Part shown: in pieces, positions 10,150 to 38,944 of the stretch | How the letters are laid out: every line of letters begins with the position of its first letter | How positions within the stretch are numbered: position 1 is the first letter of the stretch | Assembly (NCBI RefSeq): GCF_023101085.1 | Contig: NZ_CP064703.1 | Location: forward strand, 2,232,001-2,296,000 | Direction: 5' to 3' | DNA from: Bradyrhizobium sp. 170 | GTDB taxonomy: Bacteria; Pseudomonadota; Alphaproteobacteria; Rhizobiales; Xanthobacteraceae | Length of the DNA: 64,000 nt | Position numbers and translations under genes: made by a program | The notes under the pieces: generated by a model | The model's input: the letters and a program-made list of their open reading frames with translations, nothing else | The model's database searches: none | Told to the model about the DNA's origin: nothing

Positions 10150-10166
10150 CCCCAGGAGACTGCAAT

Positions 10167-19750: not shown

Positions 19751-20096
19751 TCGGTTAATCCACGCGGGCAGATGAACATCAAAGACCCGTTGCAGTCTTC
19801 CTCGATCGCGAGACTCGTTGCAGATCGCTTTACAGGCAGAAATCGGTAGTCATCGGTTGCGACTGGAACCGCGGAGCTACGCGGAAGGCGCAGCTGGCCC
19901 AGTTGAGCCTGTCATCCTCGCGCGTGAAACCGTAAGGCATCGGAACAGGCGATGCCGAGCCCTCCGTCGCTGGATGTCGATGCAGCTCAGGGAAGGCAGG
20001 TCGGCAAGCCGCCTCGGTCTCAGTATTATAGTACCGCAAAGCGCCGAAAGTTTATGTTGTGGCAGGCTCGCCGTCTTGGGTCTACTTTGGCGTGCT
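19751..20096. other. Upstream region of the Wadjet operon
   Basis: The reading frame of jetA happens to stay open back to 19818, but the upstream residues are Arg-rich and unlike the family, so this stretch is taken as non-coding. It should contain the jetA promoter; I see no clear sigma-70 pair or long dyad. Confidence 0.4.
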
Positions 20097-21548: not shown

Positions 21549-21551
21549 GCG

Positions 21552-22301
21552 ATGAAGGATATCGAAGCACGCCTGAAAACGAAGGGCATCCGCCCCGACG
21601 ATTTTCGCGCGGTTTGCAGCGTGCTCCTCAGCAAGGGCTTTCTCAGCCGCGCCGATGGAGGCGACTCCACCCGGCTCTATGACGTTGCTGCGCGTTGCGA
21701 AGCCGAACTCTCCGAGTACCTTGCGTTTGCCTTTCCGGTCGTGCTCCTCAACACGCTCCGGCCGCCGCACTTTCGGCTGGTTCCGTCTCATCATCGCGAC
21801 CTGGGCTTGGTAGAGCCCGATGAAGACCTTGAGATGCGGCGCGAAGTAAAGCAGTCCGTCGCGCAGGCGCTTGCCGCCTCGCTGCTCGCTTTGCGTATGC
21901 TTTACGATGAGCAGCTTCTGGAAAAGAAGATCGACGTGTCGGGGCGTATCAGCGTCAAACTGACCGAACTTGCCTTGTTTATGAATACAACATTCGGCGT
22001 GGGCCTTCCGCTAACGAAGACTGAGCAAAGAGCGCTCTTCATGAAGCTGAAGAAGCACGGCGCTCTCGACATGCGGATTGAAGCACTTGGAGACGAGGAT
22101 GCCGTCATCGTGATTCGCCCCGAAATTCTTACCCTCGTGCTGGAGCAGAACGTTCGTGCCGCGCAAGCGGCGTTCGAGGCCTCCTCAAATGATCTTCCTG
22201 GGGATATAGCCCCGGCGGCGGCGGAGGCGCCGAATGATTCACATTCCGCGCAAATCATAACCCTTGAACGAACGGAACGCGGCTCGACGAGCCGCCCCTG
22301 A
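21552..22301 (+). CDS. jetB: Wadjet JetB (MukE-like, DUF4194-type)
   Basis: The 249-residue protein has the JetB/MukE pattern: an N-terminal winged helix (VCSVLLSKGFLSRADGGDST), PDEDLEMRREVKQSVAQALA in the middle, then a C-terminal winged helix with TKTEQRALFMKLKKHGALDM and a disordered Ala/Pro-rich tail. It binds JetA and the JetC heads. It lies between jetA (3-base gap) and jetC (18-base gap). Confidence 0.85.
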   Translation: MKDIEARLKTKGIRPDDFRAVCSVLLSKGFLSRADGGDSTRLYDVAARCEAELSEYLAFAFPVVLLNTLRPPHFRLVPSHHRDLGLVEPDEDLEMRREVKQSVAQALAASLLALRMLYDEQLLEKKIDVSGRISVKLTELALFMNTTFGVGLPLTKTEQRALFMKLKKHGALDMRIEALGDEDAVIVIRPEILTLVLEQNVRAAQAAFEASSNDLPGDIAPAAAEAPNDSHSAQIITLERTERGSTSRP

Positions 22302-22319
22302 TCGAGACAGCCGGTATTC

Positions 22320-25300
22320 ATGCGTATTGCACAAGCGACAACGATGCACTGGGGCGGTCTGCCGAACATCGACTACGCGTTCGGCGGGCATACCCTGCTT
22401 GCCGGAGAGACGGGGTCCGGGAAGACATCCCTGATCGACGCCATCGTCGCTGTCATGGCAGGTGGCGATAGCCGCAAATCGAAGTTCAATACCGCGCAGA
22501 CGCAAAGTGCGCCCTCGGCAAAGAAGAGCAAACGGACGATCCCATCCTACATCACCGGCAGCAATGGCATGGGCCGGTTTCTCCGGCCGAATGGCGCGCA
22601 CGGATATGTTTGCGTTGCCTGGATTCAGGATGCGGGCGACGGCCCCTTTGGCATGCCCTTCACAGCCATCATCGGCGGTGAGGCCACTCTCGACCGTGAT
22701 GTGGAAAAAACGCCATCCCTCAGCGGGGAGTTGGTTCGCATCCTTGTCCGAGGGCATCTCGTCGGGCACGGCGACTTGATGAGTGCGGGCGGCACCGTCA
22801 TGCCCGGGCATGACCTGGTCGTAGCCCTGCGCGCAAAATACGGTACATCGGCCGTCCGCGACTTCAAGACCGGCGGCGAATACCTCGCGATGCTATACGC
22901 GTTCCTCAAGGGCGATACGACCCCCGTCTCGCGCGAAGAGGCGGACGCCGCGATCAAGGCTTTCGTGAGCGCGATCGCTTATCGCCAGCCGAACGATATC
23001 GATGGGCTCATACGCGAAGAAATTCTTGATCCGGTCGACAATGACGCGCTGATCCAGCGTCTTATGGAAACAATCCGGGAGGTCAACCGGCTGAAAACAG
23101 AAGCGGCGCGGATGGAGGCGAACATCGCGCAGCTTGAAGCCGCCGAAATCGACCTTCGCGGCGCCTTTTCCGCGTTTATGCAGGAACGTATGGCGCGCGC
23201 CCTGATCGAGGTTCGCAGAGTCCGGGACATTCAAGCCCAAGCGGAGGCAAAATTCGATGAGCGCCAGATAGAGGCGGACGATCTTAGCCAAACCGAAGCG
23301 GCCATTCTTGCAAAGAACAAGGAAATTCAAACGCTCGAAGGCAAGCACGGCGACATCCAGGCGCGTATCGCCAAGGAAGACGTTAACACCACCAAGACAA
23401 ACCTTGAGCGGCTGATTGCCGAACAAGACCGCGAGATGGCCTCGATCCTCGCTCGCGTCCAGAGCACCGAGCAGGCCTTCAAGACGGCGGAAGCCGATGT
23501 TACCTATATGGAAGGCGTTGTTCGAACTATCGATGAGTTAAGCGACTGCACGTCCGCGCTAACCAATCTGCGCGCGGCACTGTCTTCGGTGTCTCTTGCG
23601 GCACTCCACGGTGCCATTGATGCCGTCCGCGACGGTGTCGGCGAGAATTCACTTCGAGTCATGCTGGAGCAATGCACGGCGATGCACGGCGCGCTCGGTG
23701 AGACTTGGGGGCAGGCGGTCAACGGCGAGTCCGGTCTGCGAACTGCATTTAACCGTTCCTTTCGTGCGATCGAAGGCCAGTATGACGCCAAGGCGGAAGA
23801 GGCGAGGAGCATTCTGCGGCGTGTCGAAAAACTAAAAGTCGGGCAGATTGAGTATCCGGAGCCCGTAGAGTATTTTCTGCCGCTGCTTCAGGCTCAGCTT
23901 CCTCAATGCAAGCCGCGGGTGCTTTGCGACGTCGTCGAAGTCACCAAGCCCGAATGGCAACCGGCTATCGAGGGATATCTTGGCTGGGATCGCTACACGA
24001 TCCTTTACGACCGGAACTACGAAACCCAGGTCGTTGCGCTCGCCAAGGCGTTTCGACGCGACAATCCGGGCAGGCGCGGCAATATCTCCGTACCTCAGTT
24101 GTCTCTTGCGATTGAGGATCACCCGCGCGTGGACACGACCTCGATTGTGCATGTTCTCGCGGTTTCCGGAGATCCCGAGGCAGATGGCTACCTCAAGGCT
24201 CGATACGGCCGGACCCTTACGGTCCGGGACACCGAGACCCTGCGAAGAACCCGCAGCGGCATCATGCAGGATGGCTGGTCGACGCAAGGCTATCGGTATC
24301 AGCAGCGGCTCAGTCCCGACGAGGATCTGGTATTCGGAGCAGAGATCCGCCGCAAGCAGCGCGATACGCTGCTTCGTCGGGGCGAACAGCTCAGGAAAGA
24401 GATCGACGCCCTGACGGTTCGCAAAACCTTGCTGGCGAAGGCCATTGAGATCCCGGGTCCGTCAGCCATTCTCTTGCAGGCCGATGACCCACGGTTTTTC
24501 GATGAAGCCGCCGCGCTTCGCCGTATGGCCTCGGACGATCTCGCCGGCCTCGATCTTTCCACCATCGCTACTCTGATCAAGCAGGCCCAGGACATCGAAA
24601 GCGATCTTAAGGGATTGCGGTCGGACGTCTTCAAACTCGGCATTCACAAGGGAGGTGTTCAGACAATCGTCGACGGCATCGACAATCAGCTTGCGGACCT
24701 TCATGAGCAACTTGCTGACGTGGAACCCAAAGCCGAAGCTGAGACAGACCAGTATCAGACTTTGGTAGCTAGCGCGTTCATCGACCGCGAGGAATGGGAG
24801 AAGCGCTTCGAGAAGGAATTCAAGGAGCCGTGGTCGGTCGACACCTATACCAATCGGCGAAACGACCAGGCCACGCACGCAACGAACCTGACCAACGAGA
24901 CCATTCTTAAACTGAACGCTTACAAGCACGATGCGCTCGACTATCAGCAACTGAGCGTCCAGCCGTTTGCGTACCATCCGAGTTTTGCGGCCGATACGGC
25001 CATGTTCTGGATGGAGGACACGTGGCGGCAAATTCGCGAGCAAATGCGTGCTCAGAGAGATACCGGCTTGCCCGAACGCAAGCGCGACTGTGACATCGCG
25101 GAGCGCAGCTTTACGTCGTCCTTTACGACCGATTTCTGTTCGACGGTTCTGAGCAACGTCGAAGGGCGGGACGACACGATTCTCGCGCTCAACACCAACC
25201 TGAGCCGGATCAATTTTGGTGGTGACAGCTACTTCCTCATCAACCCCTTGAAGCCGGAATACGGCGACTACATTGAATTATTCCGGAAAATTCGCGGACT

Positions 25301-25979
25301 TGCCGAAGTTCGCAAGGGCGAGCTCGATCTGTTCAACGCCGCCGAGTTCAATGCAACGGAGCGCGATACGTTGCAGCGCATTCGCGCTCTTCTGCTCGAC
25401 GAGCGCGACACCGAGCAAGCGGTTGACGAACTCCGGCGCATCGCGGACTATCGTAACTACCGCTCCTATGATTTTGAGCGGCGCCGCGGCGAGGACCGCG
25501 TCGAGCTATCCCGTTGGGGCACGGGTTCCGGTGGAGAGACAGAAACACCGGTGTATGTCATTCGTGTCGCCGTGATGGCATCAGCGTTCAAGATCTTCTC
25601 GCAGCAAAAGAAGGCTCATTTCCGTTCCATCTTTATGGACGAGGTCTTCTCAACCATGGACGAAGCACGGACGCGCCGGGTCATTGGCTTTCTGAAGGAA
25701 CTTGGCCTGCAGATCGTATGCGCCGCGCCGACGCGGTCGATGGCCGCCGTGCTCGACGAATTTGACACAAGGATCAACTTCTCGCGTTACCAGACGGCAT
25801 CGGGTGACTCGTCCGATGTCAATGTCATCGACCTGGACAAAGCTCGTGTCCGCGCGCTCTACGAGACGCATCGGGAGAACGTGTCGGCTAAAGCCGAGGC
25901 CGCCTTCAAGGAGAACGAACCTCCAGTCCATGTCATTGCAGCGGATTCCGTGCGAACCGTCCAGTCCGGCACCTCATGA
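22320..25979 (+). CDS. jetC: Wadjet JetC (MukB/SbcC-like SMC ATPase)
   Basis: The 1219-residue SMC protein has Walker A GETGSGKTSLIDA at about residues 29-41, long coiled coils around residues 240-430 and 690-830 with a hinge-like globular part between, an ABC signature in WGTGSGGETETPVYV near residue 1068 and Walker B FRSIFMDEVFSTMD near residue 1101. It is the DNA-loop-extruding motor of Wadjet. The final helix runs past the fold with a tail of about 60 residues. The stop overlaps the start of jetD by four bases. Confidence 0.92.
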   Translation: MRIAQATTMHWGGLPNIDYAFGGHTLLAGETGSGKTSLIDAIVAVMAGGDSRKSKFNTAQTQSAPSAKKSKRTIPSYITGSNGMGRFLRPNGAHGYVCVAWIQDAGDGPFGMPFTAIIGGEATLDRDVEKTPSLSGELVRILVRGHLVGHGDLMSAGGTVMPGHDLVVALRAKYGTSAVRDFKTGGEYLAMLYAFLKGDTTPVSREEADAAIKAFVSAIAYRQPNDIDGLIREEILDPVDNDALIQRLMETIREVNRLKTEAARMEANIAQLEAAEIDLRGAFSAFMQERMARALIEVRRVRDIQAQAEAKFDERQIEADDLSQTEAAILAKNKEIQTLEGKHGDIQARIAKEDVNTTKTNLERLIAEQDREMASILARVQSTEQAFKTAEADVTYMEGVVRTIDELSDCTSALTNLRAALSSVSLAALHGAIDAVRDGVGENSLRVMLEQCTAMHGALGETWGQAVNGESGLRTAFNRSFRAIEGQYDAKAEEARSILRRVEKLKVGQIEYPEPVEYFLPLLQAQLPQCKPRVLCDVVEVTKPEWQPAIEGYLGWDRYTILYDRNYETQVVALAKAFRRDNPGRRGNISVPQLSLAIEDHPRVDTTSIVHVLAVSGDPEADGYLKARYGRTLTVRDTETLRRTRSGIMQDGWSTQGYRYQQRLSPDEDLVFGAEIRRKQRDTLLRRGEQLRKEIDALTVRKTLLAKAIEIPGPSAILLQADDPRFFDEAAALRRMASDDLAGLDLSTIATLIKQAQDIESDLKGLRSDVFKLGIHKGGVQTIVDGIDNQLADLHEQLADVEPKAEAETDQYQTLVASAFIDREEWEKRFEKEFKEPWSVDTYTNRRNDQATHATNLTNETILKLNAYKHDALDYQQLSVQPFAYHPSFAADTAMFWMEDTWRQIREQMRAQRDTGLPERKRDCDIAERSFTSSFTTDFCSTVLSNVEGRDDTILALNTNLSRINFGGDSYFLINPLKPEYGDYIELFRKIRGLAEVRKGELDLFNAAEFNATERDTLQRIRALLLDERDTEQAVDELRRIADYRNYRSYDFERRRGEDRVELSRWGTGSGGETETPVYVIRVAVMASAFKIFSQQKKAHFRSIFMDEVFSTMDEARTRRVIGFLKELGLQIVCAAPTRSMAAVLDEFDTRINFSRYQTASGDSSDVNVIDLDKARVRALYETHRENVSAKAEAAFKENEPPVHVIAADSVRTVQSGTS

Positions 25980-27130
25980 CGTCCGCGCCGACTGCAGTCA
26001 TGGCGCCCCAAGCGGCGCTGAACGAACCTCTTGTTCGGCGGGTCCTGATGCGAGTTATCGATCGCCTTGACGCCCAGCCCCAAGCCGAGCGTACGCATTC
26101 CATCCGCATCAATCTTGATATGCAGACGGCCCCGGAAATCCATGCGGCTGATTCCCTTTCGGCGCGTGCCGTGGCCTGGGCAGCGATCGATGGGACCGTA
26201 GTTGCCGGTTGGGCAACGCTCGGTTACCGAAAACATCGCCGGCACGGCGCGCGCGAGGAGCGCGAGCCTTACCTGGATTTCCAGTGGCCGGACGCCGTCG
26301 AAGAACTCATGCGGGAGAAATTGAACAGGCCGCGCAAGGCAGAATCGTACGCGTCCCAATGGCGCATTCGGCTTGCAGCGCAAAACCTGCCAATTTCAGC
26401 ATCGTCGCTTGCCAGAATTCTATCCGCACCCATAGAAATCAGCACGCGCTCGATTGAGGAGGTGCTTTGCCGCTTTCTCTCGATCAGGGACTTGGCCAGC
26501 GAGCCGCTGCTCTTGCGCGAGGTATCTTCGCGTGTCTTTTGGGGACTTTCCAAAATCCTTGATGGCCGCGCCGATGCCGTGGCAGCCCTCCTCGATAGCG
26601 ATGAATGTCCTTTCGCCGAACAGCCAGTTGTTCTCAACGTGCATGTCCCCATTCTGCCACGAGCATTTCTCTTCATCGAGAATCATGTTGCGTTTGAACG
26701 ATTGAGAAGCGGAGACAGTCTCGGCGATACGGCGCTGATCTTCTCAAGCGGCTTTCGAGGTGCAGCGGCTCGCTTGCGGAAGCCTAATGGATGCAGCGCC
26801 TATTATTCACGCGCAAGCGCGCCGCCGGCGGTAGCAGAATTGGAGCGCAGGCTGTTTTCGCCTGCCGATATTCCAGTCTACTTTTGGGGCGACCTCGACT
26901 ATTCCGGCATGGCGATCCTCGCGTCGCTGCGTAGCATTTTTCCTTCTGCTCAAGCCTGGAAACCCGGTTACGAACCGATGCTTTCGCGGCTAAACGCGGG
27001 GGGAGGCCATTCTCCCGCCGAGAGTGGCAAGGAACGGCAGCGCGTGATCGAGGCTACCGGCTGCACCTATGCCGATGAAGAACTCATTCCGGCGTTGCGG
27101 GTAACTGGCATGTTCCTGGATCAAGAGTAA
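25976..27130 (+). CDS. jetD: Wadjet JetD (TOPRIM nuclease)
   Basis: The 384-residue protein shows the JetD layout: an N-terminal arm (DUF3322-like) and a C-terminal TOPRIM domain related to topoisomerase VI (DUF2220-like). The TOPRIM metal motif is visible as YFWGDLDYSGMAIL near residue 301, with a preceding beta strand around VVLNVHVPILPRAFLFIENH carrying a glutamate, and the chain ends in VTGMFLDQE. JetD cuts DNA when the SMC motor stalls on a small circle. It overlaps jetC by four bases. Confidence 0.88.
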   Translation: MTSAPTAVMAPQAALNEPLVRRVLMRVIDRLDAQPQAERTHSIRINLDMQTAPEIHAADSLSARAVAWAAIDGTVVAGWATLGYRKHRRHGAREEREPYLDFQWPDAVEELMREKLNRPRKAESYASQWRIRLAAQNLPISASSLARILSAPIEISTRSIEEVLCRFLSIRDLASEPLLLREVSSRVFWGLSKILDGRADAVAALLDSDECPFAEQPVVLNVHVPILPRAFLFIENHVAFERLRSGDSLGDTALIFSSGFRGAAARLRKPNGCSAYYSRASAPPAVAELERRLFSPADIPVYFWGDLDYSGMAILASLRSIFPSAQAWKPGYEPMLSRLNAGGGHSPAESGKERQRVIEATGCTYADEELIPALRVTGMFLDQE

Positions 27131-27833: not shown

Positions 27834-28802
27834 TTAAACGCCGCCGTCGCGTTTGGGCTCCTGCTGCGCTCTCTCGATCATGGCGCGGGACACGACTTTT
27901 TCGGGGTCGCGCTCCCGATGGCGCGTTGCAAATTCCTCGTCGCTGAGCTCGCCATTGCCATAATCGGCGTAATCAAGGTGCTGCCAGCCTCCCTGGCTGA
28001 GATCCATGCCATAGAGGGGACCGACGAAGCCGCTCCGCGGGATGACATAGGCACGGACGAACGGAACGGTTTCGTAGGCGCGTTTCACGAACTGGGCGCC
28101 GGCCGTATTCTCGATGAACCAGGGCTGGGAGCCAAAATAGCCGAACTGCTTTGCGATGATGGCATTCAGCCGCTGCAGCGCCGCGAGCGCGTCCTCGCGC
28201 AAGGAATGGTAAGTGTCCGGATCGAAATGAATGGACCGGTTTCGAAGCTCGCCGAGCACGAGAAAATCCGCACCGACACCGTCCGCCAGGACGTCCCAGT
28301 CAGTCAGAACAGTGATGACGAACGCCCAGTTGTCGAAGGAGTCCTTGCGATAGACCTTCCGGTAATGCACGGACGATTTGAAGCTGTGGCGCAGGTCCAG
28401 CACGAGGTGATTGAGAATGCGCTCGCCGAGCGCGCAGGCCGCGACCAGGGCCGGGTAATAGAGACCAGCGACAAAGGACCGGCGTGCCTGCTCGTGGAAT
28501 TGATTGTGATACGCCAGCAGCGACATCGATTTCGGGCCGAGGTCCGTCACATTCTTGATGACGATGTCGATGTGCGCCGAGCCGTATTGCTGCTCAAGCC
28601 GCTTGATCGCCTGCGCGCGGTTCTCCTGATGGTTTCGCTTGACCGGCTCGTCCCAATGGTCCTCGGCTTCGGCAAGGCTCAAAGGCGTCGAGTCAAAATC
28701 AAACGAAAACGGATGGTAGCGGCGAAACCCATGATCGGCGAGGTCAGCATGGGCGCCATGGTCGTAGACCCCGCTGGTCAAATCGGCGATCGTCTTCCGC
28801 AT
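27834..28802 (-). CDS. Unidentified protein with a HEPN-like R-x4-H motif
   Basis: The 322-residue protein is mostly helical. Residues 100-200 contain YYPALVAACALGERILNHLV, then LGELRNRSIHFDP, where R187 to H192 fits the R-x4-6-H signature of HEPN RNase or RNA-binding domains and the general plan of those four-helix bundles. The rest is not recognised. It is convergent with the Wadjet operon (27 bases apart). HEPN domains are common in bacterial defence genes; catalytic activity here is only inferred. Confidence 0.6.
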   Translation of the reverse strand: MRKTIADLTSGVYDHGAHADLADHGFRRYHPFSFDFDSTPLSLAEAEDHWDEPVKRNHQENRAQAIKRLEQQYGSAHIDIVIKNVTDLGPKSMSLLAYHNQFHEQARRSFVAGLYYPALVAACALGERILNHLVLDLRHSFKSSVHYRKVYRKDSFDNWAFVITVLTDWDVLADGVGADFLVLGELRNRSIHFDPDTYHSLREDALAALQRLNAIIAKQFGYFGSQPWFIENTAGAQFVKRAYETVPFVRAYVIPRSGFVGPLYGMDLSQGGWQHLDYADYGNGELSDEEFATRHRERDPEKVVSRAMIERAQQEPKRDGGV

Positions 28803-29113
28803 TGCTCATACTACATCAGCCAGTTTCCATAAGGGCACGGCATTTGGTCAACCTCGAGCGCGCATCATGTCCTCGTGCGGTCGGCCAGCTTTGACGTGGC
28901 TTGGCAGCGCTGGTCGGCCTGCATGAGATCCGGATGGAGCATTTCAAGCGGGATGCGAGGCCGCTCCACGCGCAGGGCCAAACGTGCCCAGCATCCGTGA
29001 CAGAACGTCCTGTCAGCACGCCCGGGGTCTGCTGGGCCTAGCCGCGCCTGGCGCGGTGCTCCAGTTGGGTTCGCTGACAGTTGACTGCACCAAGCAACTG
29101 ATTCTCGATGCCC
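28803..29113. other. Intergenic region between divergent genes
   Basis: No supported gene. A minus-strand frame at 28816-29019 has no recognisable domain. From 29130 on the sequence becomes strongly A+T-rich, as expected at the promoter of the following large gene. Confidence 0.4.
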
Positions 29114-29143
29114 TTGATGATCGGCGACGCGGGAATCTAAATA
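29114..29143 (+). promoter_or_regulatory. Candidate sigma-70-type promoter of the STAND gene
   Basis: TTGATG (29114-29119), an 18-base spacer and TAAATA (29138-29143) stand in an A+T-rich block upstream of the 29212 gene. The match is moderate and unverified. Confidence 0.3.
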
Positions 29144-29205
29144 ACTAAAATTAAATCAATGGAGTACGAGGTAGGGTTGCAAATAACAGCTTGATCCGTT
29201 AAGGG

Positions 29206-29246
29206 ACCACGATGGTACATCTAGTGGATTTATGGACCATTGTGGT
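29206..29246. promoter_or_regulatory. Inverted repeat over the start of the HTH-STAND gene
   Basis: Arms ACCACGATGGT (29206-29216) and ACCATTGTGGT (29236-29246) are complementary at 10 of 11 positions with a 19-base spacer. They cover the first possible start codon (29212) and end just before the second (29254). Because the encoded protein begins with an MqsA-like DNA-binding domain, this is a natural site for autorepression. Confidence 0.5.
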
Positions 29247-32200
29247 GGTCTACATGACCGAAGCTAAGCCGAACGAGCTGACGCCGCACGAAATTCGCCG
29301 CATCCGTGAGAAAATCGGATTGTCGCAGGTCGAGGCTGGCGAGCTGCTTGGGGGCGGCCCGCGCGCCTTCACAAAATACGAGTCCGGCACGATCAAGCCG
29401 GCGTCAGCGACGGCGAATATCCTGCGCCTGCTGGACGCCAACCCCTCCGCCATCATCACGCTATCCGGCGGCAAGATCGCTCCGATGGAGGCGAATAGTA
29501 CCGGGCCGTTCGAGGTCACGGGCAAGCACATCGCGGCGCTCAGCCCCAGAAAGTTTGTGCTGCTCATGCGGCGGCTGCTCGACGGCGAGGCATGGAGCGG
29601 CAACCTGCCGATGGACGGCATCCACGTTGCTGCCAACATCACCGCCGCCGACGGCGGCGAGGATGCGCGCATCGAGTGGCAGAACGGCCCCGAGCGGACC
29701 AAGTTCTTGCCGAGCCGCATCTCGCAGTTCCAACTAAAGGCTGGTCCGATCTCGCCGGCGGAAGCCGGCGCGGACGTCCTGACGCCCACCGGCGAGGTCA
29801 AGTCGATGGTGCGCGACGCTTTGGAAAAGGGTGGCAGCTACGTCATGGCGTGCGGCCGCTCCTACGAGAACAAGCTTGTCAAGGCGCGCGCCGAAGCCAT
29901 CCGCAAAGCACTCGCAAAAGCCGGCCTCAAGGTCAGCCCCAATCAAGTTCAGTTCCGCGATGCCGATCAGCTCGCGTCGTGGGTCAATATCCTGCCGCCC
30001 GTTGCGACCTGGGTGCTCGAGCAGACGCAGCCCGGCCTGGTCGGGCCCTTCAAGGACTGGACGCACTGGGCCGGTCGCTTTGAAGGCTCGTTCTGGGTCC
30101 CGGATCCGCGCCTGCCTCCGTTCCGCGAGAAGCTCCGTTCGTTGGTGGGCAAGCCGCGCGGGGTTGCTCGCGTCGTAGGCCTTTCGGGCGTCGGCAAGTC
30201 GCGCCTGACGCATGAGGCGCTCGGTCCCACGGAAGAGGAAGAAGCGTCGGGCGTTCAGTTCTCCGACCTCGTTCTTTACTCGGTGGAATCCGAGGCCGGG
30301 CCGGTTGCCATCAAGAGCATCGTGCAGAGCCTCGTCGACTCGGGCTTCCGCGCGATCGTTGTCGTCGATCGCTGCCCGCTGGACTCGCATCATGATCTCG
30401 TCGCGATGGTGAGGCGTGCGGGCAGCCGCGTGTCGCTCATCACCATCGACCACGACGTTCCCCCATCGATTCAGGGCGACGACGAGTTGCTGATGGTCGA
30501 TCCGGCGAGCGATACCGTCGTGGAGGGCATGATCAAGCAGATCGCGCCTGACCTGCCGAGCGAGGATCATCGCCGTCTCTTAAGATTTGCGCGCGGTTTC
30601 CCACAGATGGCGACCTTGCTTGGCCAGGCATGGCTCAACGATATGCCCATCGCGGCGGCCACGGATGATGAGCTTATCGATCGGATTCTTCTCGGTCGAA
30701 GGCCAGCCGATCCGGTGCTGCTGAAGGATGCGGGAATGCTCCTGGGTGCGTTCCGGCTTCTCGGCACCACCGATGAATTGAACGACCTTACGCAGGTTGC
30801 ACAGTTTACGCGGGGCCGGTCCGTCGATGATCTCCGTGCTGCGTTCGCCGACCTGCAGGGGCGCGGCGTGGTGCAACAGCACGGGCGTCTTGCCAGCCTT
30901 CAACCCAAGCCGCTCGCGCTGGCGCTTGCCGAGCGGCAATGGCGGCAATGGGGGCAAGCAACATGGGACGGCATTCTCGCTGGCAATCTTCCGGAACGGC
31001 TTCGGCAGAATGCCGCGTGGCAACTCGCCCTCTTGAACACAGGTCCGGTCGCGCCGCAGGTTGCGCGCCACGTGATGCGTTTTGATGGCCCCTTCGCCTC
31101 GCTGGAAGCTCTCGGCCAGGAAGGTGCCGGCGACGTCGTCAGCGCCTTGGCGGAGATTGATGCCGAAGCGGTCGTGACGCTCCTCGAACACATCCTGAAC
31201 CCGCTCTCCATCAAGGAACTTGAAGACGTTCGGGGCGACTTGCGGCGGGGCCTTGTTCATGCGCTTGAGAAGATCGCTTTCATCGACACGGCCTTCGAGC
31301 GTGCCGCGCTGTTGTTGCTCAAACTCGCTGTCGCCGAAAACGAGCAGTGGGGTAACAACTCCGTTGGGCAGTTCAAGGCCTTGTTTCCGGTATTCGGGGG
31401 GAACACGACCGCCCCGGCCGGGCCCCGCCTACGCCTGTTGGACGAGTTGTTGCAGAGGGATGACCCGCAGGAAATGCCGATTGTGATCGACGCATTGTTG
31501 GACGCATCCAGCATGCACTCGCATGCAAGCATCATGGGCGCGGAAACGCATGGCAGCCGTCCGCAACTGGCTCCCTGGCAACCGAAATACTGGAAGGATG
31601 CGTGGGACTACGTGATTGCCTGCGTCGACCGGTTGGTTGCGATCGGCTTGCGCGACGACGCTCTCGGCTCAAGTGCGCGTAACGGGATCGCGCAGGAATT
31701 TCGCTCATACGTGGACGGCGGCCTGATCGACCACGTCGAGAGGTGGGTTGCGCAGGTTCAAGCGGTTCATCCGTACTGGCCTGCTGCCCTGAACGCGCTG
31801 GGCGATGTGCTGCAGTACGACTTAGCCTCGCTCAAGAACGACGAAGAGGCGCGCGTTCGCAAGCTCATTGCCGCTCTCTCTCCGCAAGATATCGCCGGCC
31901 GCATCCGCCTGCTCGTCACCGAGATGCCCTGGGATTATCCCGCCCATGCGAAGCTCGAATTTCATGAGCGGGAAAAGCACCAGGCCGACACGGTGCGCGC
32001 CTTGGCCAAAGAGGCGCTCGGGCAGCCCGAGACGCTACGGGCGGCGCTTGACGCCTTGTCCTGCGATGAGCAGCGAATGTCAGTCGCGTTCGGCAAAGCC
32101 ATCGGCGAGCTTGCCGGCGACCCGCTTGCGTGGGAAGAGTCGATCAAGCGCGCCTATGCTGCGACCGCCGAAGGCAAGCGGAACTACGGGTTGGTCACCG

Positions 32201-33285
32201 GTTACTATTCAGGCCTCGCTGCGCAGCACCCCGGCGCGGTCGACGCCTACAAGAACGAGGCCATCAACTCGAACGTCTTCGCGCCGACGCTGCCGTTCTT
32301 GTGCCTGTTGCTCGGCATCACGGCAGACGATGTTCGGCTGGTATGCAAGGGCCTGAAATCGGGCACGCTGCCGCCGGGCACGATGTCGCATTGGAGCATG
32401 GGCGGGGTGTTCGCCAAGCTTGACGCCGCCTCGGCAGCGCCCTTGTTCAACCAGCTCCTGAGCATGGACAGCGTAGCCTATTCGGTGGCGCTCGACGTCA
32501 TGGGAATGTTCGTCCATGGCAATCGCGATCGGCTTGAGGAATTGCGGCCCCAGATCATGCTGGCGGTTGACCACGTCGGTAAGCGGCCGAAGCGCCGCGG
32601 CTCGCAGATGAGCGCACATCACTTCGAGCACGTGGTGGCCTGGCTCCTCAAGAAGGGACGGGACGACACCGACGCCCGCGTGGCGGCCGGCAAGCTGGCG
32701 AACTATCTTGCGGCAAGCCCGGACGGGGATGCGGCCAAGATGATCAAGCCGCTGCTGCCAATCATGTTCAAAAACTTTGCGTCCATCGTCTGGCCGGTGT
32801 TCGGTAACGCGATCATTCGGGACCGTGCGACGGCATGGCGCATCGAACACGCAATCGGCGATGGATTTTCATTCGCCGACACCAAGCAGCCGGCCGTTTT
32901 GCACGTCCCCGAGGATATCTTGTTTTCCTGGGCGCACGCCAATCCCGAAGGGGGGTCTGCGTTCCTCGCGCGTACGTTGCCGGTTCTGAACTCGCGTGCG
33001 CCGGGGACCGAACGAAGCTTCCATCCTCTTATGATGCGGCTCCTGAACGAATTCGGTGACCGTGACGATGTGCGGCGCTACGTCATGCAGAATATGCACA
33101 CGTTCGGCTGGTCCGGGTCGCTGACCACCTATTTTGCACTTTACGAAGAGCCGCTCCGCTCGCTCTTCGAGCATCCGATCGGAGCCCTGCGGCGCTGGGC
33201 AACGGTCGCACACACGCAAATACGCAAGCAGGTTGAGTCCGCCAAACGTGATGATGACGAGCAAGATGCTCAATGGAACGCATGA
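29212..33285 (+). CDS. Giant HTH-nuclease-STAND NTPase fusion, candidate defence sensor
   Basis: The 1357-residue protein has four parts. Residues 23-75 are an MqsA-like HTH (LTPHEIRRIREKIGLSQVEA, then KYESGTIKPASATANILRLL). Residues 110-265 look like a PD-(D/E)XK nuclease: D147-G-G-E-D151, ARIEW, then QFQLK with K176. Residues 300-500 are a STAND-type P-loop NTPase with Walker A GLSGVGKS at 323-330, Walker B AIVVVD with D386 and a GFP motif at 462-464. The remaining roughly 850 residues are helical, repeat-like and probably sense a target. This plan resembles Avs-type sensors, in which target binding triggers oligomerisation and an N-terminal effector; an attached MqsA-type HTH is unusual. 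Start is 29212 (AAGGGA five bases upstream) or 29254. A peptidase-like gene follows at 33432. Confidence 0.75.
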   Translation: MVHLVDLWTIVVVYMTEAKPNELTPHEIRRIREKIGLSQVEAGELLGGGPRAFTKYESGTIKPASATANILRLLDANPSAIITLSGGKIAPMEANSTGPFEVTGKHIAALSPRKFVLLMRRLLDGEAWSGNLPMDGIHVAANITAADGGEDARIEWQNGPERTKFLPSRISQFQLKAGPISPAEAGADVLTPTGEVKSMVRDALEKGGSYVMACGRSYENKLVKARAEAIRKALAKAGLKVSPNQVQFRDADQLASWVNILPPVATWVLEQTQPGLVGPFKDWTHWAGRFEGSFWVPDPRLPPFREKLRSLVGKPRGVARVVGLSGVGKSRLTHEALGPTEEEEASGVQFSDLVLYSVESEAGPVAIKSIVQSLVDSGFRAIVVVDRCPLDSHHDLVAMVRRAGSRVSLITIDHDVPPSIQGDDELLMVDPASDTVVEGMIKQIAPDLPSEDHRRLLRFARGFPQMATLLGQAWLNDMPIAAATDDELIDRILLGRRPADPVLLKDAGMLLGAFRLLGTTDELNDLTQVAQFTRGRSVDDLRAAFADLQGRGVVQQHGRLASLQPKPLALALAERQWRQWGQATWDGILAGNLPERLRQNAAWQLALLNTGPVAPQVARHVMRFDGPFASLEALGQEGAGDVVSALAEIDAEAVVTLLEHILNPLSIKELEDVRGDLRRGLVHALEKIAFIDTAFERAALLLLKLAVAENEQWGNNSVGQFKALFPVFGGNTTAPAGPRLRLLDELLQRDDPQEMPIVIDALLDASSMHSHASIMGAETHGSRPQLAPWQPKYWKDAWDYVIACVDRLVAIGLRDDALGSSARNGIAQEFRSYVDGGLIDHVERWVAQVQAVHPYWPAALNALGDVLQYDLASLKNDEEARVRKLIAALSPQDIAGRIRLLVTEMPWDYPAHAKLEFHEREKHQADTVRALAKEALGQPETLRAALDALSCDEQRMSVAFGKAIGELAGDPLAWEESIKRAYAATAEGKRNYGLVTGYYSGLAAQHPGAVDAYKNEAINSNVFAPTLPFLCLLLGITADDVRLVCKGLKSGTLPPGTMSHWSMGGVFAKLDAASAAPLFNQLLSMDSVAYSVALDVMGMFVHGNRDRLEELRPQIMLAVDHVGKRPKRRGSQMSAHHFEHVVAWLLKKGRDDTDARVAAGKLANYLAASPDGDAAKMIKPLLPIMFKNFASIVWPVFGNAIIRDRATAWRIEHAIGDGFSFADTKQPAVLHVPEDILFSWAHANPEGGSAFLARTLPVLNSRAPGTERSFHPLMMRLLNEFGDRDDVRRYVMQNMHTFGWSGSLTTYFALYEEPLRSLFEHPIGALRRWATVAHTQIRKQVESAKRDDDEQDAQWNA

Positions 33286-33431
33286 CTTTGCCGCCGGAAA
33301 AAACGGAAATGTTCGCAACGTCAACCGGCCGCGCCTGTCGACCAGCGCATCAAGACATGAAGTAGCTTAGCGCCGCTGAGGGCAATGAAAGTGACATGGG
33401 CTGACAATTCGCGCACGCTTCACGCGTTATA

Positions 33432-34481
33432 ATGCAGTTGATGAGCGATTCGATCCCGACGGAGAAAGAGCAATCTGGCGCGCCTGAGGCGGATCTGCCG
33501 CCGCCGAGCGCGCCTGAGAATATTTCCGTAAGCTTGCGGGGTTTCGACACCGAGGATCATGCTCGCGCTTTCGGCAATTTGCTTGCGACCTATGTACGGG
33601 AGCTCAGCCGCCATATCGACCTCAGCGCGTTGGATGGGATTACTGTCGCATTCAACTACGCGCAGGCGCTGCTTGACCTGGATCGTGGGTATGCGACATG
33701 CCATAAACTGACCCCCTCGGACGGCATTGCGTATGGGGTGGCCATGACGCCTTCTGTCATGCGCGAGGGCTGCGTCGAAAGCCATATGCTCTTTCATGCA
33801 GGCGTCCTGCTTGCGCTCGAAGACGAAATGCACGAGCTCTATGGGCAGGCGCTTCACATGCTCGCGCACGAATGCGCGCATGTTGAAGTCACGGAGTGCT
33901 TCAACGCGGCCTTCCCGGGCATGCTCTTGCAAACCAAGGTCGGGGCGCATGAGCGCTACCGCTGGGACATCATCAACGCGTGCTGGGACGAGTATGCGGT
34001 GACGCAAATTTGCTCGCCCTTCGGGCGCCGCCCGACCGATGACTACGAGGAGACATTCATCACCGCTCTCACAGAGACCCGGCAACACGCGAACAATTTC
34101 ATCAAAGCCTACCGTCTGCACGCCGACCATGGCCGGATCACGAGTGAGGTTTATGGCGCCTATGGCGAACTGATGAAATTCGCAGCCTATCATCTCGGCA
34201 ACATGACCGGGCTGGGCTTGACGCTCGATGATCGACCGATGACGAAAGCCGCGCTCGAAGGGCATTGGTTCGCCCCTTACTTTGAAAAGCTCAAAGAAAC
34301 TTGTGCTGCGATCGCCGAGGATTACGGGACGTGGAAGGATCGCAGCATCTTTGAGGCGCTGGGCGATCTGGCAGACGAGATCGTCGTCGACGGCGGCGTC
34401 ATTATATATGGCGACCGCGACGACGGCGGATTTGCCGTGAAAATCCCGTTCACGCCTGAAACCATGCCGGACATGCCCTAG
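33432..34481 (+). CDS. HExxH metallopeptidase-like protein next to the STAND gene
   Basis: The 349-residue protein carries HECAH at residues 146-150 inside LHMLAHECAHVEV, and downstream WDEYAV with E187, which can be the third zinc ligand of a gluzincin-type metallopeptidase. No signal peptide is present, so it should act in the cytoplasm. It lies 146 bases after the STAND gene on the same strand. A processing enzyme or protease effector is possible. No family name is recognised; a shift to ATG 33441 is possible. The N-terminal 30 residues are Pro/Glu-rich and probably disordered. Confidence 0.65.
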   Translation: MQLMSDSIPTEKEQSGAPEADLPPPSAPENISVSLRGFDTEDHARAFGNLLATYVRELSRHIDLSALDGITVAFNYAQALLDLDRGYATCHKLTPSDGIAYGVAMTPSVMREGCVESHMLFHAGVLLALEDEMHELYGQALHMLAHECAHVEVTECFNAAFPGMLLQTKVGAHERYRWDIINACWDEYAVTQICSPFGRRPTDDYEETFITALTETRQHANNFIKAYRLHADHGRITSEVYGAYGELMKFAAYHLGNMTGLGLTLDDRPMTKAALEGHWFAPYFEKLKETCAAIAEDYGTWKDRSIFEALGDLADEIVVDGGVIIYGDRDDGGFAVKIPFTPETMPDMP

Positions 34482-34851
34482 CCAGATTGAGCATTTGGCG
34501 CGCTCCTGGCGACGCTCTCGCAGAAATGACCGAGCCCTTGGCGACTAAAGAAGCAGAGGCACCCGCTGTCGGGGCAGTGATAGCGACGCCGAAGGCGGGA
34601 CACGAGAGCGAGTGCAGTCGCGAGACCGGTTAACAAGGCACCCGGGCGACGGGCAGTGATAGCGACGACGGCATGAAATGACGGCGGGACCTTCGCCCGA
34701 GTGCCTCCGGCGAGCGACACATTATGAGCACGCAAGGATCGAAGCTGGAAAGTCGGGTCGGCTCGGTTCGGAAGAGCCAATCGGCGCTTGGCGAAGAAGC
34801 CCCGGTCAACTCGTGCCCGGCATAATAATGTCTCACTTCAGTCGGGCTGCA
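34482..34851. other. Non-coding region with a duplicated 32-bp unit
   Basis: Units at 34557-34588 and 34636-34667 share their first nine and last 17 bases (common core GGGCAGTGATAGCGACG) and differ in six central positions; they start 79 bp apart. No gene with a recognisable product is present on either strand. It separates the convergent STAND/peptidase genes and the frameshifted gene at 34852-35713. Confidence 0.5.
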
Positions 34852-35713
34852 TCAAGCCGGAAACTTATACCCTCGCTCCCTTAGCGTGCTGCCATATTCC
34901 GAGGGCGACCACTGCGGAGAAGCTTTGAGCCGGAAGAAGGCGCGAGAAGCTTCATCACCTGTGAGTGCGAAGTCCCAGCCATATTGCGCACAGAGCATGA
35001 TGAAGAAGGCCGTCAGGGCGTCGAACGCAGCATCAAGCGACGCTTGGGGGAAATTGCTGTCCCGATTGTGCTTTACTCCATTATACGCGCCGTACCATGG
35101 CAAGTCTTTCGTGCCGTGTCGCCAGCCAACAAAGGGGCGGCGTTCAGTCATCCATGGGTAGTACGGAAACTCCACCGCATATTCTGCCAGTTTCATCGCC
35201 GAGCACAGCTTGACATAATGCGTTGTATTTTCGGCTGGCGCTTTGTGAGCCCCGAGAATGGCTTTCCATTGTGACTCCAATTCCGTGCAGGCGAGTATGA
35301 GCACATTCCGCATTTCGTGCCCGTAAGCTTTGAAGTTGGCCTCCATTTGCTGAACAACGCGGCATATCTGCTCGAGCTGCTGGATAAGAGCGTGAAGCTG
35401 TCCGCTTGCGCTCGCGCGGTGGCTCAGCGCCTCAAGGCTCTGATCGCAGTTGCGCCCCTGGCTTTCCCCAAGGATCGGGCGGGGCCATGCCAGCGTAGTA
35501 TACGCCGGGTTCAAGCTCGAGTTCATCAAACATAGTCGTGGGATTGTGCCCGCGCAGGGTTTCGAGCGTTGTCTTGCCTGGCGGGGCGGGAACCCGGTTC
35601 TGCTCTGAGTCCGTAACGTCGATGCGTTTGGCCATGGATTCACCAACTTCCCAAACGCCGAGAACCTGGCTCGGCTCGAAGCCATGGTTACTGACATGAA
35701 TGAAGTAGCGCAA
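34852..35713 (-). pseudogene. Frameshifted gene, HEPN-like C-terminal region
   Basis: Two overlapping minus-strand frames form one protein. The first (35713 down to 35432) starts with TTG after GGGGGAA and reads MRYFIHVSNHGFEPSQVLGV onward to DELELEPGVYYAGMAPPDPW. The second (about 35470 down to 34852) continues with ESQGRNCDQSLEALSH and a helical domain (LEQICRVVQQMEANFKAYGH) ending with GVKHNRDSNFPQASLDAAFD. The shift falls at a run of four C on the plus strand (35466-35469); removing one base joins the frames. It may be a true frameshift mutation, a sequencing error or, less likely, programmed. The helical end with YNGVKHNR resembles HEPN-type folds. Intact, it would have about 286 residues. 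Confidence 0.65.
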
Positions 35714-35948
35714 TGCTTCCCCCGCTGAAAGCCGTTGTCGTCAGTGCTTGTTCTCAATGGCCTTGCCGAGGCGATGCATTTCAACGTTCAAGTCGATCTC
35801 GTCCAGCGTAATGATGCGCGCGTGCGCGGGCGACCCGGATAGGGAACAAGCGGAAGAATGACTCTTGTACGCTTTGGCCGCGATTAAAGACGGTCGCGGA
35901 AACTCGCTTCCAGTTGTCGCTGCGTGAGTCTGATGCGGTGGTCACAAA

Positions 35949-38372
35949 TCACGCCGCGATCGCATTGTCGGGTTCGTAAATGTGGGTTTGCCACTTGTGT
36001 GTCGTGGTCCCATCGGCGCTCCGCCCAAGCTCCAATGTGACGAGGCGGTCGTTCGGGAAAGCTGGGCTTAGTTCAAGCGCCAAATAGTCGAACAGGGCAC
36101 GTTCATGGACGGCCAAAATGATCTGTCTTCCATGCGCTTTTGAAAGCGTACGAAGGAGCACCGCGAACTGCCCGATATGAAGCTCGTCCATACTCTGCAC
36201 CGGGTCATCAATAATCAGCCAGGGCAACTGAAGCTTGGCAGTCAAATGGAGAGACAAAAACAGAGTGAGCGCTGCGGTATTTAGATTGCCGGCGCTGAGC
36301 ATCGCCCGCGGATTGCCACCCTTTTCGCCTGATCGGTGAACTGTCTCAAGAGCCGCTTCAACGGGACCGGGCCCCGGCGGCAGCGCGAAGGCGGGTACGA
36401 ATGTTTCCTCAGGTGCAAGTCGCACAAAGAGGTCGCGCCAGATCGAATTGAGAGATTCGTTGAACACCCGTCTGACGATATTGGTTCGGACCACGGAAGC
36501 CTTCTGAGCCAAGCCGCGTGCGAAGTGAATGACTTCTTCCGCGCTTTCCCTTGCTTGGATCAGTTTTGCTAGCCTCGTTCGCTTTCCATCGATATCCAGA
36601 TTGAAACTGGCCAGATGATCGCGCGAGCGCTGAAATTCAAGGGCTTGCTCCAGCGCAGTCTTGCGGGCGGATTGAGATGCAATTAATCGTGCCTCTTCCT
36701 GAGATCGCCAATCGCTCATCGTAGCAAGAGCGTTTCCAATCACGACCGCAGTGTCAACGGTTATACCCAGGTCCTTTGCGATAGCCGTTACTGTCTGCTG
36801 CAGGTTTGTGACCCGCTGATTACGGCTCCTGAGCTGATCGAGCCGGGCTGCAGTCGCATTGACTTGCGCAAGCAAGGTCATGCCGCGCGTTGCTTCAGGC
36901 TCGATGCTGGTCAACTGAGCGACGAGTTCACCCAGGCGGGCCTGCCGGTTCTTCAGTTCATTACGGGTATCGTCAGAAATAAGACGCGCGGTGAGCTGTG
37001 CCCGTTCGCGCTCCAGGGGCGCGCTGGCACCTGCTGCGTTTGCTTTTTCCTTCGACAGCGCTTCGAGACGACCTGCGCTTTCGGTCAATGACGCGATGCG
37101 CGCCGAGACGCGGTCGCTCAGGGGTGATCGGGACACCTCACTAAAATCGCGGCCGCAGACGGGGCAATCGTCACTGTGGATGTGCGGCAGGAGTTCAGCG
37201 AGGCTTTGGGCAAGTTGAGCCGTATCTGCGCTGATACCTTGAATCTGCTGATCCAGTAAACGAACGCGCGCCGCACCACGCTCCAGCTCTTGCGTGATCG
37301 CCAAAATGCGCGTGGTCGAACGTTGATCCTCACTAAGAACGCTCGTACACCGGGCGAGTTCCTTTTCCGCGGTACGTAGCGCTGTCGTCCGGGCGAGATC
37401 CGGGTTTGTCGATGCAGGAAGCTGCAAGTCCGGAAATATCGTCGCGACCTCTGCAATGAGATTCGCGAGGGCCACGCCCGGGCCGGCTCGCCATTCGTTC
37501 AATTCCGACTGCGCGGCGTGTGCTTCGTTTTCGCTTCTCTCGCGATCTTCCGTTATCGGATCGTTGGCAACAGATTGCCAGTCGGCAATAGCGGCGTCGA
37601 TATCGCGGCGAATACGGGCGAGAGCCGATAGCCGGCCTTCTTCCGGAGATTTTTGTAGCTCGGCGATAATCCCCGGCAAGTTTGAAAGCTCGACCGACGA
37701 CCGAAGTATCTCGCCGGCGCGCTTGCTGAGATTGTCTCCAGTCTCTTGGAGATACGTTTTCATCTGCCCTGCCTGCGAAGTCAGCCCATTGATATCCTTC
37801 TCCAAAGACTCAATGTCTGCTCGCAACTCGTGGAATTCAGGAACCGGCCCGCGCAGACGGCTAATGTGGCCCGCCGTGTGCAAGCCGTCGATCAGGCCGT
37901 CCAGACGATCAAGTCCAAGCAGATCTTTCACAAATTGAGTCAGCGGCGAGTCAGACTTGCGCGCGTCTTTATGCTGATAGATTTCGAGCAGCCGTCCCAA
38001 AGCAGATTGTGCCAGATAACATCGCTCGCTGAACAAGCCAGCGAGCTGGCCGTCCAAGGTCGGTCTTCCTCGGATCCCCTTTTCGTCAACTTCCAGCGCA
38101 GCAGGCGAGACGTCAAATCCGGTCGTTTCGAGTTTCACGGCCGCGCGCCTGGCCTGTTTGTGAACCAGGTGCTTCAGATATTCCGGCTCGACGCGCGCCA
38201 ACGAAGGAATACTGCCGGTCAGAGCCAGTTCGATGCCGGATAGGACGCTCGTTTTGCCTGCCCCGTTGGGGCCGTGGATCAGGACAACCGGAGCGTCCAG
38301 GGAAGTATAGACGGTTCCACGGATGCTTCTAAAGTCCGTGAGAGATATCGAGGTAAGACGCCTGCGTGTCAT
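35949..38372 (-). CDS. lmuB: Lamassu-type SMC/Rad50-like ATPase (LmuB)
   Basis: The 807-residue ATPase begins LTSISLTDFRSIRGTVYTSL and has Walker A HGPNGAGKTSVLSGIE at residues 33-48, coiled-coil arms, a Rad50-type zinc hook CPVC at about residues 403-406, an ABC signature in LSAGNLNTAALTLFLSLHL and Walker B LPWLIIDDPVQSMDE near residue 715. In Lamassu (the ABC-3C class) this subunit senses DNA structures or phage replication and releases the effector. It is the last of three overlapping genes 40659-35949 on the minus strand; the start overlaps the middle gene by four bases. Confidence 0.88.
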   Translation of the reverse strand: MTRRRLTSISLTDFRSIRGTVYTSLDAPVVLIHGPNGAGKTSVLSGIELALTGSIPSLARVEPEYLKHLVHKQARRAAVKLETTGFDVSPAALEVDEKGIRGRPTLDGQLAGLFSERCYLAQSALGRLLEIYQHKDARKSDSPLTQFVKDLLGLDRLDGLIDGLHTAGHISRLRGPVPEFHELRADIESLEKDINGLTSQAGQMKTYLQETGDNLSKRAGEILRSSVELSNLPGIIAELQKSPEEGRLSALARIRRDIDAAIADWQSVANDPITEDRERSENEAHAAQSELNEWRAGPGVALANLIAEVATIFPDLQLPASTNPDLARTTALRTAEKELARCTSVLSEDQRSTTRILAITQELERGAARVRLLDQQIQGISADTAQLAQSLAELLPHIHSDDCPVCGRDFSEVSRSPLSDRVSARIASLTESAGRLEALSKEKANAAGASAPLERERAQLTARLISDDTRNELKNRQARLGELVAQLTSIEPEATRGMTLLAQVNATAARLDQLRSRNQRVTNLQQTVTAIAKDLGITVDTAVVIGNALATMSDWRSQEEARLIASQSARKTALEQALEFQRSRDHLASFNLDIDGKRTRLAKLIQARESAEEVIHFARGLAQKASVVRTNIVRRVFNESLNSIWRDLFVRLAPEETFVPAFALPPGPGPVEAALETVHRSGEKGGNPRAMLSAGNLNTAALTLFLSLHLTAKLQLPWLIIDDPVQSMDELHIGQFAVLLRTLSKAHGRQIILAVHERALFDYLALELSPAFPNDRLVTLELGRSADGTTTHKWQTHIYEPDNAIAA

Positions 38373-38944
38373 GTCGTCGCCTCGCTCTCGGCGATCGAGG
38401 CGGCAATCTTTTGATGCAGAAGCGTCTCGACAGCATCCTTACCTTGCGCGGAGGCCGCCACGAGTTCGGCGAGCAGGGGTTCGTCATTGGCGACCGCACG
38501 CTGGAGCTCAAGCATGGGTTCGGAAATCGTATCGATGCCTTGCGGTATGCTGAGGGGCGTTAGGACGGCCAGCCAGTTTTTGATCGTGGCGTCGGCCTCG
38601 TCAGGGTCGCTGCTGCCGACAGGCAAAACACGGCATATTTTGGAAATTGCATCCAATGCGGATGTCGAGGGACGAGGCCCCGCCAACACGGCTGTCAGGG
38701 GGCGGCGAGATTTCACGCTGTCAAGCGCCCGCGCGATCGCTTCCAACTTGCTACGGGTGCGCTCTTCGGGATCCGAAACGGTGTCCGCAACAATGATCAG
38801 ATCAGGTTGTGTCCCGGTGCCGACGAGGGCAGCCGTTACCGCGAATTTCATCCCGGCGATTTCAAGGGGACTGGGCAGGCGCCGGTATCCGGCCTGCTCA
38901 AGGAAGGCGGAAATCGCATCGACAGGTGTGGTCGCCGCTATCAT
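38369..38944 (-). CDS. lmuC: Lamassu middle component (LmuC / ABC-3C MC-like)
   Basis: The 191-residue protein sits between the SIR2 gene and the SMC gene with four-base overlaps at both ends. It contains LEIAGMKFAVTAALVGTGTQ and DLIIVADTVSDPEERTRSKL, an alpha/beta segment of the kind seen in ABC-3C middle components, then a helical end. I assign it from position, size and this pattern; sequence conservation is weak in the family. Confidence 0.72.
   Translation of the reverse strand: MIAATTPVDAISAFLEQAGYRRLPSPLEIAGMKFAVTAALVGTGTQPDLIIVADTVSDPEERTRSKLEAIARALDSVKSRRPLTAVLAGPRPSTSALDAISKICRVLPVGSSDPDEADATIKNWLAVLTPLSIPQGIDTISEPMLELQRAVANDEPLLAELVAASAQGKDAVETLLHQKIAASIAESEATT

Follow-up and report, generated by a model that had tools for sequence, protein, structure and literature searches.

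We analysed a 64,000-nucleotide stretch of the Bradyrhizobium sp. 170 genome (assembly GCF_023101085.1, contig NZ_CP064703.1, positions 2,232,001–2,296,000 of the forward strand), referred to here as the window; all coordinates are window positions. The piece under study (29206–34481) contains two open reading frames (ORFs) on the + strand, 29212–33285 (1357 residues) and 33432–34481 (349 residues). The first encodes a single protein that joins an MqsA-type helix-turn-helix (HTH), a PD-(D/E)XK-like segment, a STAND nucleoside triphosphatase (NTPase) and a long C-terminal region. The second encodes a protein resembling HExxH metallopeptidases. An earlier note on this DNA (the original prediction) had placed the two ORFs 146 bases apart, which is correct for the ORFs as listed, and had taken 29212 as the start codon of the first; we revise the starts of both below. 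The features of the first gene are as follows.

29254..33285, + strand: HTH-nuclease-STAND gene from its likely true start, ATG 29254 (1343 residues); start in the earlier note, 29212
29269..29451, + strand: MqsA-type HTH, residues 20–80 (Pfam, NCBIfam and PDB matches)
29509..30075, + strand: PD-(D/E)XK-like nuclease segment, residues 100–288, with D147–D151 at 29650–29664 and Q174–K176 at 29731–29739
30178..30201, + strand: STAND P-loop GLSGVGKS, residues 323–330 (alignments, Foldseek)
31072..33282, + strand: C-terminal region, residues 621–1357 (approximate boundary), a putative sensor, helical according to the original prediction, lying inside the PD-Lambda-4_A profile match

Residue numbers follow the 1357-residue ORF, in which Met15 corresponds to ATG 29254. 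Fetched loci are denoted L and genomes G, each with a number.

Domains and family of the STAND protein

The HTH is matched by the Pfam family MqsA_antitoxin (48.3 bits, residues 20–79) and by NCBIfam TIGR03830 (65.6 bits, above the cut-off of 61.8), and its three PDB matches are all E. coli MqsA. The window protein thus shares with MqsA of the mqsRA system its HTH and, as described below, the type of palindrome found at MqsA-type antitoxin loci. Unlike MqsA, it has no zinc-binding N-terminal domain, the HTH beginning at residue 20, five residues past Met15. An MqsR toxin gene was not recognised alongside: neither of the flanking ORFs, 27834–28802 and 33432–34481, is matched by any Pfam family at E 1.

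Conservation of the following domains was assessed in two alignments, one of the window protein with 11 diverse homologues (20–31% identical; A2) and one with 24 homologues (A4). Asp147, Gly149, Asp151, Gln174 and Lys176 are invariant in both (12/12 and 25/25 rows), and Gly148 is invariant in A2 and not in A4. The nuclease motif of the original prediction, D147-GGED followed by a Gln and Lys176, therefore stands except for its second acid, which is Asp151 rather than Glu150, since Asp151 is invariant and residue 150 is variable. In the STAND module, the P-loop residues Gly323, Ser325, Gly326, Gly328 and Lys329, together with Asp386, Cys388 and Gly462, are likewise invariant in all rows of both alignments. 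The hallmarks of a STAND NTPase are accordingly present: the P-loop lysine (Lys329), the downstream acidic strand (Asp386) and a GxP-like glycine (Gly462). An AlphaFold2 model of residues 15–620, built from 25 sequences, has a mean predicted local distance difference test (pLDDT) score of 84.2 and a predicted template-modelling score (pTM) of 0.68. Nucleotide-binding leucine-rich repeat (NLR) and STAND folds are among its top Foldseek matches in the PDB, the best being the plant NLR NRC3 (1.4e-8; query template-modelling (TM) score 0.28), followed by Avs3 (2.8e-8; 0.24). Profiles and invariant motifs thus bear out the domain order read in the original prediction.

The PADLOC profile PD-Lambda-4_A (PDLC03991) covers residues 100–1352 with 270 bits, from model position 4 to 1275 of 1283. 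Because this homology spans nearly the whole of the protein behind the HTH (here the core), we assign the core to a known defence family: by profile similarity it is a distant relative of the defence protein PD-Lambda-4_A, with which it also shares the P-loop NTPase. The earlier description of a new defence system does not hold for it. The assignment leaves out the N-terminus, as the match starts at residue 100, so that a known family accounts for the core and not for the HTH. The locus also falls outside the two-gene definition of PD-Lambda-4, as PD-Lambda-4_B (PDLC03992, 303 positions) has no match in the whole genome of the window at E 0.001. A table in the excerpt of PMC10952713 places PD-Lambda-4 under P-loop NTPases and names Vassallo et al. 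2022 (PMC9519451) as its source; the sections consulted of that paper deal with its functional selection and do not cover PD-Lambda-4 itself.

The order of putative effector, STAND module and putative C-terminal sensor is also that of the Avs (AVAST) proteins, as exemplified by Avs3 (PDB 8dgc), the structural comparison being limited to residues 15–620. Unlike them, the window protein is matched by none of the Avs models of PADLOC at E 0.1, a threshold at which only two PD-Lambda-4_A models match, and it carries a fused HTH. We know of no fused HTH in Avs. None is mentioned in the excerpts of PMC12931631 and PMC10907252 available to us.

With a profile of the core, 385 genomes of the class yielded 15 with a match and 398 of the phylum yielded 17, the genome of the window included; several of these matches are weak and turned out to be proteins of a sister family, described below. 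When the whole protein was searched against its own bacterial family, 20 of 198 genomes matched (its own included), 13 of the 20 only over the HTH part (table count). Phage records gave a single match, to the HTH only, and a scan of viral contigs with the whole protein gave none.

Recurrence of the fusion and operator candidates

The N-terminus could be assessed in 38 core proteins, and five of them bear an HTH, by a hand count in which near-duplicates such as L122 and L130 are counted separately and L028, a piece of L009, is left out. All five are confirmed by Pfam.

MqsA-type HTH: the window and G242 (fetched as L074 and L095)
LexA-type HTH: L057 (a Xanthomonas campestris plasmid) and L127 (an IMG/VR contig)
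Xre-type HTH: L134 (G779), with about 230 further residues

G242 belongs to another bacterial family of the same class; its protein combines an MqsA HTH (64.6 bits) with the same core and is 50% identical to that of the window. A tree was built from 38 core rows, a set slightly different from that of the hand count. In it, the window and G242 are sisters with support of 100/100, as is the LexA pair, and the MqsA pair, the LexA pair and L134 occupy three separate places amid HTH-less relatives; the G242 row is 44% filled in this tree, and some rows, including those of the window and L134, have an uneven composition. The L134 gene (541–5262 of that locus) encodes 1573 residues, its additional segment lying between the Xre HTH and the nuclease.

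Proteins of about 1350 residues with a weak likeness to the core (28–47 bits for six members) form a sister family. Eight of its 13 complete proteins bear an HTH, which Pfam confirms at E 0.001 in seven (L060, L086, L087, L088, L150, L151 and L152) and not in L085. A search of the class with the sister profile matched 112 genomes, most with HTH-sized pieces only; long matches start at profile positions 5–6 in G471, G304, G232 and G236, and at positions 74–81 in G492, G417, G328, G513 and G401. On a Rhizobium plasmid (L060:1816–9843), an HTH-bearing sister STAND-like protein is encoded immediately upstream of a core STAND gene that lacks the HTH. The record labels the former a 'helix-turn-helix transcriptional regulator', a hint that STAND-like proteins can hide among annotated regulators of about 1350 residues. 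Among the literature matches listed, which were judged mostly by titles and the openings of abstracts, no description of an HTH fused to a nuclease-STAND protein was recognised, and earlier descriptions may exist.

The inverted repeat that the original prediction saw at the start of the window gene is real. The pattern ACCAYNRTGGT occurs twice in the window, at 29206 and 29236; none of 100 shuffled windows contained two (mean 0.07).

29191..29196, + strand: TTGATC, possible −35 element before operator candidate 1 (by eye; compare TTGAxx ahead of the palindrome in L015–L018 and L095)
29206..29216, no strand: operator candidate 1, ACCACGATGGT; rank 64 of the window with the antitoxin matrix, diverged
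29236..29246, no strand: operator candidate 2, ACCATTGTGGT; rank 3 of the window with the antitoxin matrix (6.0 bits)

Distinct fetched DNA amounting to ~1.34 Mb contains the pattern at 12 places, nine of which are MqsA-type HTH loci. Its perfect form, ACCATWATGGT, was found in this DNA at seven places, all at MqsA-type HTH loci (L015–L018, L021, L039 and L074). Six are separate MqsA-type antitoxin loci with the HTH gene 216–528 bases downstream, and the seventh is the G242 fusion; the antitoxin loci were named by HTH similarity (L039 also by annotation), toxins playing no part in the naming. L019 and L020 have ACCTTTATGGT in place of the palindrome, L022–L024 have no such palindrome, and L025–L027 and L030 are absent from the 12 places. 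A matrix built from eight sites at MqsA-type antitoxin loci, excluding the window and G242, placed the G242 site first in L095 (10.6 kb) with 27.3 bits, the next sites scoring 7.2 and 3.8 bits. The runner-up of 7.2 bits is an imperfect, putative second site of the same promoter. In addition, the 17-mer TACACCATTATGGTGTA is identical in L095 and before the MqsA-type locus L016.

The two sites of the window lie 37 and 7 bases from ATG 29254, compared to 34 and 6 bases from the start codon in G242. We consider ATG 29254 the more likely start of the STAND gene than 29212, because the operator-like sites overlap and follow 29212 and precede 29254, and because this choice brings the site-to-start geometry close to that of G242. 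In our reading, the promoter of the window gene would be a diverged form of an MqsA-type autoregulated promoter. Of the ideas in the original prediction, the suggestion that the HTH could repress its own gene is the best supported, as it gains weight from the recurrence of the fusion in G242 with a palindrome of MqsA-type loci.

Candidate operators also accompany other fusions. In the whole of the fetched DNA, GTCATAT-N3–7-ATATGAC turns up twice, each time at the start codon of a sister HTH-STAND gene (L087 and L150), and L060 has a degenerate copy of this type before a later in-frame ATG. TGTAA-N9-TTACA occurs at five places: before L152 and L086, whose HTHs appear HigA-like by eye, in L186 and L188, both fetched via HTH matches and the latter with a HigA-like ORF, and once in L039. 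SOS-type boxes were considered for the LexA fusions, GAACATTTGTTC preceding L127 and GTACATATGTTC, with one mismatch, lying just before the HTH of L057.

The auto-repression model and its rivals

We favour, with some confidence, the reading that this gene encodes a STAND immune sensor of the PD-Lambda-4A-like kind, which has a restriction-type nuclease near its N-terminus and contains its own repressor. At rest, a dimer of the MqsA-type HTH would sit on the two palindromes, at approximately −48 to −8 of its own start codon, and keep expression low. Binding of a phage product to the C-terminal region would trigger the STAND module to take up ATP and oligomerise, whereupon the nuclease would become active and cut DNA. 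Oligomerisation may at the same time strip the HTHs from the operator and raise expression, coupling derepression to activation. A potentially suicidal NLR-like protein would have to be kept scarce before infection, and the answers known from the excerpts of the sources at hand are separate repressor genes: CapS (PMC13373217) holds an immune operon down, and CdxB (PMC13236601) represses lypABC. Like these and, as far as the excerpts go, BrxR and RptR, the window gene would place a DNA-binding repressor on an immune operon; they differ in that their repressor is a separate gene, as opposed to an HTH inside the sensor. If the reading is true, the sensor is its own repressor, and the link between activation and expression can be tested in one protein.

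More tentatively, and with a rather less than even chance of being right, the fusions may define a class of self-switching NLR-like nucleases, in which repressor HTHs of the MqsA, LexA, Xre and HigA-like types were fused several times to the nuclease end of STAND proteins, each reading an operator at its own start, such that sensing and upregulation are one molecular event.

A number of observations weigh against these interpretations. The HTH is absent from 33 of the 38 core proteins, the G242 copy is split into two ORFs, and of two records of the L057 plasmid one has an annotated coding sequence that begins downstream of the HTH and the other leaves the gene unannotated. The TM-scores of the structural matches are low. 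A scan of 28800–34800 for sigma-70 consensus promoters found none. With the antitoxin matrix, the window's own sites rank third and 64th, in keeping with their divergence, and the genome of the window contains 68 ACCAYNRTGGT sites in 9.2 Mb, or about 0.5 per 64 kb, with another close pair among the sites listed (4680958 and 4680997). As the pattern was composed after the window sites had been seen, the independent fetched DNA is the stronger test; there, three of the 12 places are unconnected with an MqsA-type HTH, and for many of the loci searched the HTH was itself the reason for fetching them. The SOS-type boxes are weak evidence, because GAAC-N4-GTTC is common (25 places) and the L057 box is mismatched, and were dropped as support for the LexA fusions. 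L085, L088 and L134 have no convincing palindrome (by a general palindrome score, none in L088 and ordinary ones in L085 and L134). That score, which used mechanically assigned starts, some of them wrong, was rejected as evidence for operators, as HTH-less controls score equally.

Some of these points would suit another explanation, that an MqsA-type antitoxin gene was by accident fused in frame with a STAND gene, its operator coming along, and that the HTH left over from it plays no functional part. The bacterial family of the window does contain MqsA-type loci with this palindrome, both window sites have diverged and most core proteins do without the HTH. We nevertheless consider this unlikely, as the fusion is kept in two well separated proteins, those of the window and G242, with the geometry of the sites kept as well, and different HTHs are fused to the same core elsewhere. 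Slightly less likely again is a role of the HTH in steering the nuclease to DNA sites in invaders or the chromosome, with autorepression secondary: the HTH directly precedes the nuclease segment and Xre-type HTHs can bind several loci, but the recognisable motifs lie beside the gene's own start. The combination of STAND and HTH is also a known plan of transcription regulators such as MalT and AfsR, in which case the HTH would be the output and the nuclease-like segment would have no activity. The excerpt of PMC13236601 mentions SWACOS and MalT-family STANDs. The invariance of the nuclease residues in all 25 rows of A4, the homology of the core to PD-Lambda-4_A, the dispensability of the HTH in the family and the adjoining Wadjet genes make such a regulator very improbable.

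Equally improbable is the suggestion of the original prediction that the two genes form one system, in which the peptidase could serve the STAND protein as an activator or be a second effector. The two genes lie close together on the same strand, and elsewhere the peptidase is found beside defence genes, once reduced to a remnant behind an annotated CBASS SAVED gene and once behind a SAVED look-alike in G045. However, neither a core nor a sister STAND gene was found in the DNA fetched at any of 34 other peptidase loci, which exclude the window and count near-identical phage copies apart; 23 of them extend over more than 5 kb on both sides, and 11 reach no further than about 3 kb on one side. 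Outside these 34 are L003 (a weak peptidase match), L036 (the remnant) and L050, and the annotations of L036 and L050 contain no gene recognisable as this STAND. Conversely, STAND homologues regularly lack the peptidase as neighbour: the four other peptidase-bearing genomes of the bacterial family do not overlap with the 20 in which the STAND protein has a match, and G242 has no peptidase match in a scan of the class made on the same genome draw as the core-profile scan. Phage homologues of the peptidase lie among tail genes, and the window gene is preceded by a TATAAT. On these neighbourhoods we reject the two-gene system.

The peptidase gene and other neighbours

The features of the second gene are as follows.

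33428..33433, + strand: TATAAT, possible −10 element of the peptidase gene's own promoter (by eye; the consensus promoter scan is silent)
33441..34481, + strand: HExxH metallopeptidase-like gene (phrog_11743) from its likely true start, ATG 33441 (346 residues)
33867..33881, + strand: HECAH, residues 146–150; third-ligand candidate E187 at 33990–33992

ATG 33441 is the more likely start than 33432, because the TATAAT overlaps the latter and several homologues align from Met4. The HECAH motif and Glu187, singled out in the original prediction as a candidate third zinc ligand, were borne out: His146, Glu147, His150 and Glu187 are invariant in all 14 rows of an alignment of the window with 13 homologues (A3). 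In a second alignment, with 11 homologues (A1), Glu147 is replaced by Asp in one of the 12 rows. The predicted structure (pLDDT 87.5) has helices at residues 137–160 and 172–194. It has no match in the PDB by Foldseek at E 0.001 and none at that threshold in a viral library, where the best hit is a phage 'Lethal factor' (E 3.6e-3, probability 1.0). The protein belongs to no Pfam, NCBIfam or PADLOC family. It matches phrog_11743 with 264.5 bits, as do the homologues (14/14 rows, window included); this family is given no function by PHROGs. The peptidase was also considered as the PD-Lambda-4_B partner and rejected, as it matches nothing in PADLOC at E 10 and the B model has no hit anywhere in the genome.

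Homologues occur in five of the 198 genomes from the bacterial family and in two of the 385 from the class, both counts including the genome of the window, as well as in 32 plasmid records and 14 IMG/VR contigs. Their other neighbours include Cas9 with HipA, HTH-HipA, MqsA-SecB and restriction genes. On a small Acinetobacter plasmid (L039:3052–5758), the peptidase is followed by a hypothetical gene, an MqsA-family antitoxin and SecB, with ACCATTATGGT right before the hypothetical gene. In the prophages L102, L104, L106, L108 and L111, the homologue appears as an additional gene that, by eye, has a tape-measure-like gene on one side and later tail genes on the other; in many cases a small ORF comes next. 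Rhizobium binae plasmid p5 encodes two diverged paralogues two genes apart (L033:7974–8963 and 9971–11047), with a DUF5677 gene between them. We conclude that the peptidase gene is probably a separate mobile one-gene module with its own promoter and not part of the STAND system. HTH genes near the peptidase in several plasmids prompted the idea of an ImmA/IrrE-like protease that cuts HTH proteins. This was considered; against it, the neighbours differ from locus to locus, any one Pfam family matches at most one of the 14 rows and the structural search at E 0.001 returned no PDB relative.

The ORFs flanking the pair, 27834–28802 and 34852–35784 (both − strand), have no convincing Pfam, NCBIfam or PADLOC match. 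Downstream, 35949–40659 (− strand) encodes an LmuB-like SMC/ATPase (122 bits), a 191-residue ORF and a protein with a SIR2 domain, which may together form a Lamassu-like system whose effector is SIR2; the SIR2 gene matches no LmuA model. Upstream, the Wadjet type I genes jetA, jetB, jetC and jetD are identified by PADLOC at 19818–27130 (+ strand). Further upstream, at 17036–18313 (+ strand), lies a TrbI/VirB10-like conjugation gene, and the defence genes of the window may reside on or beside a conjugative element.

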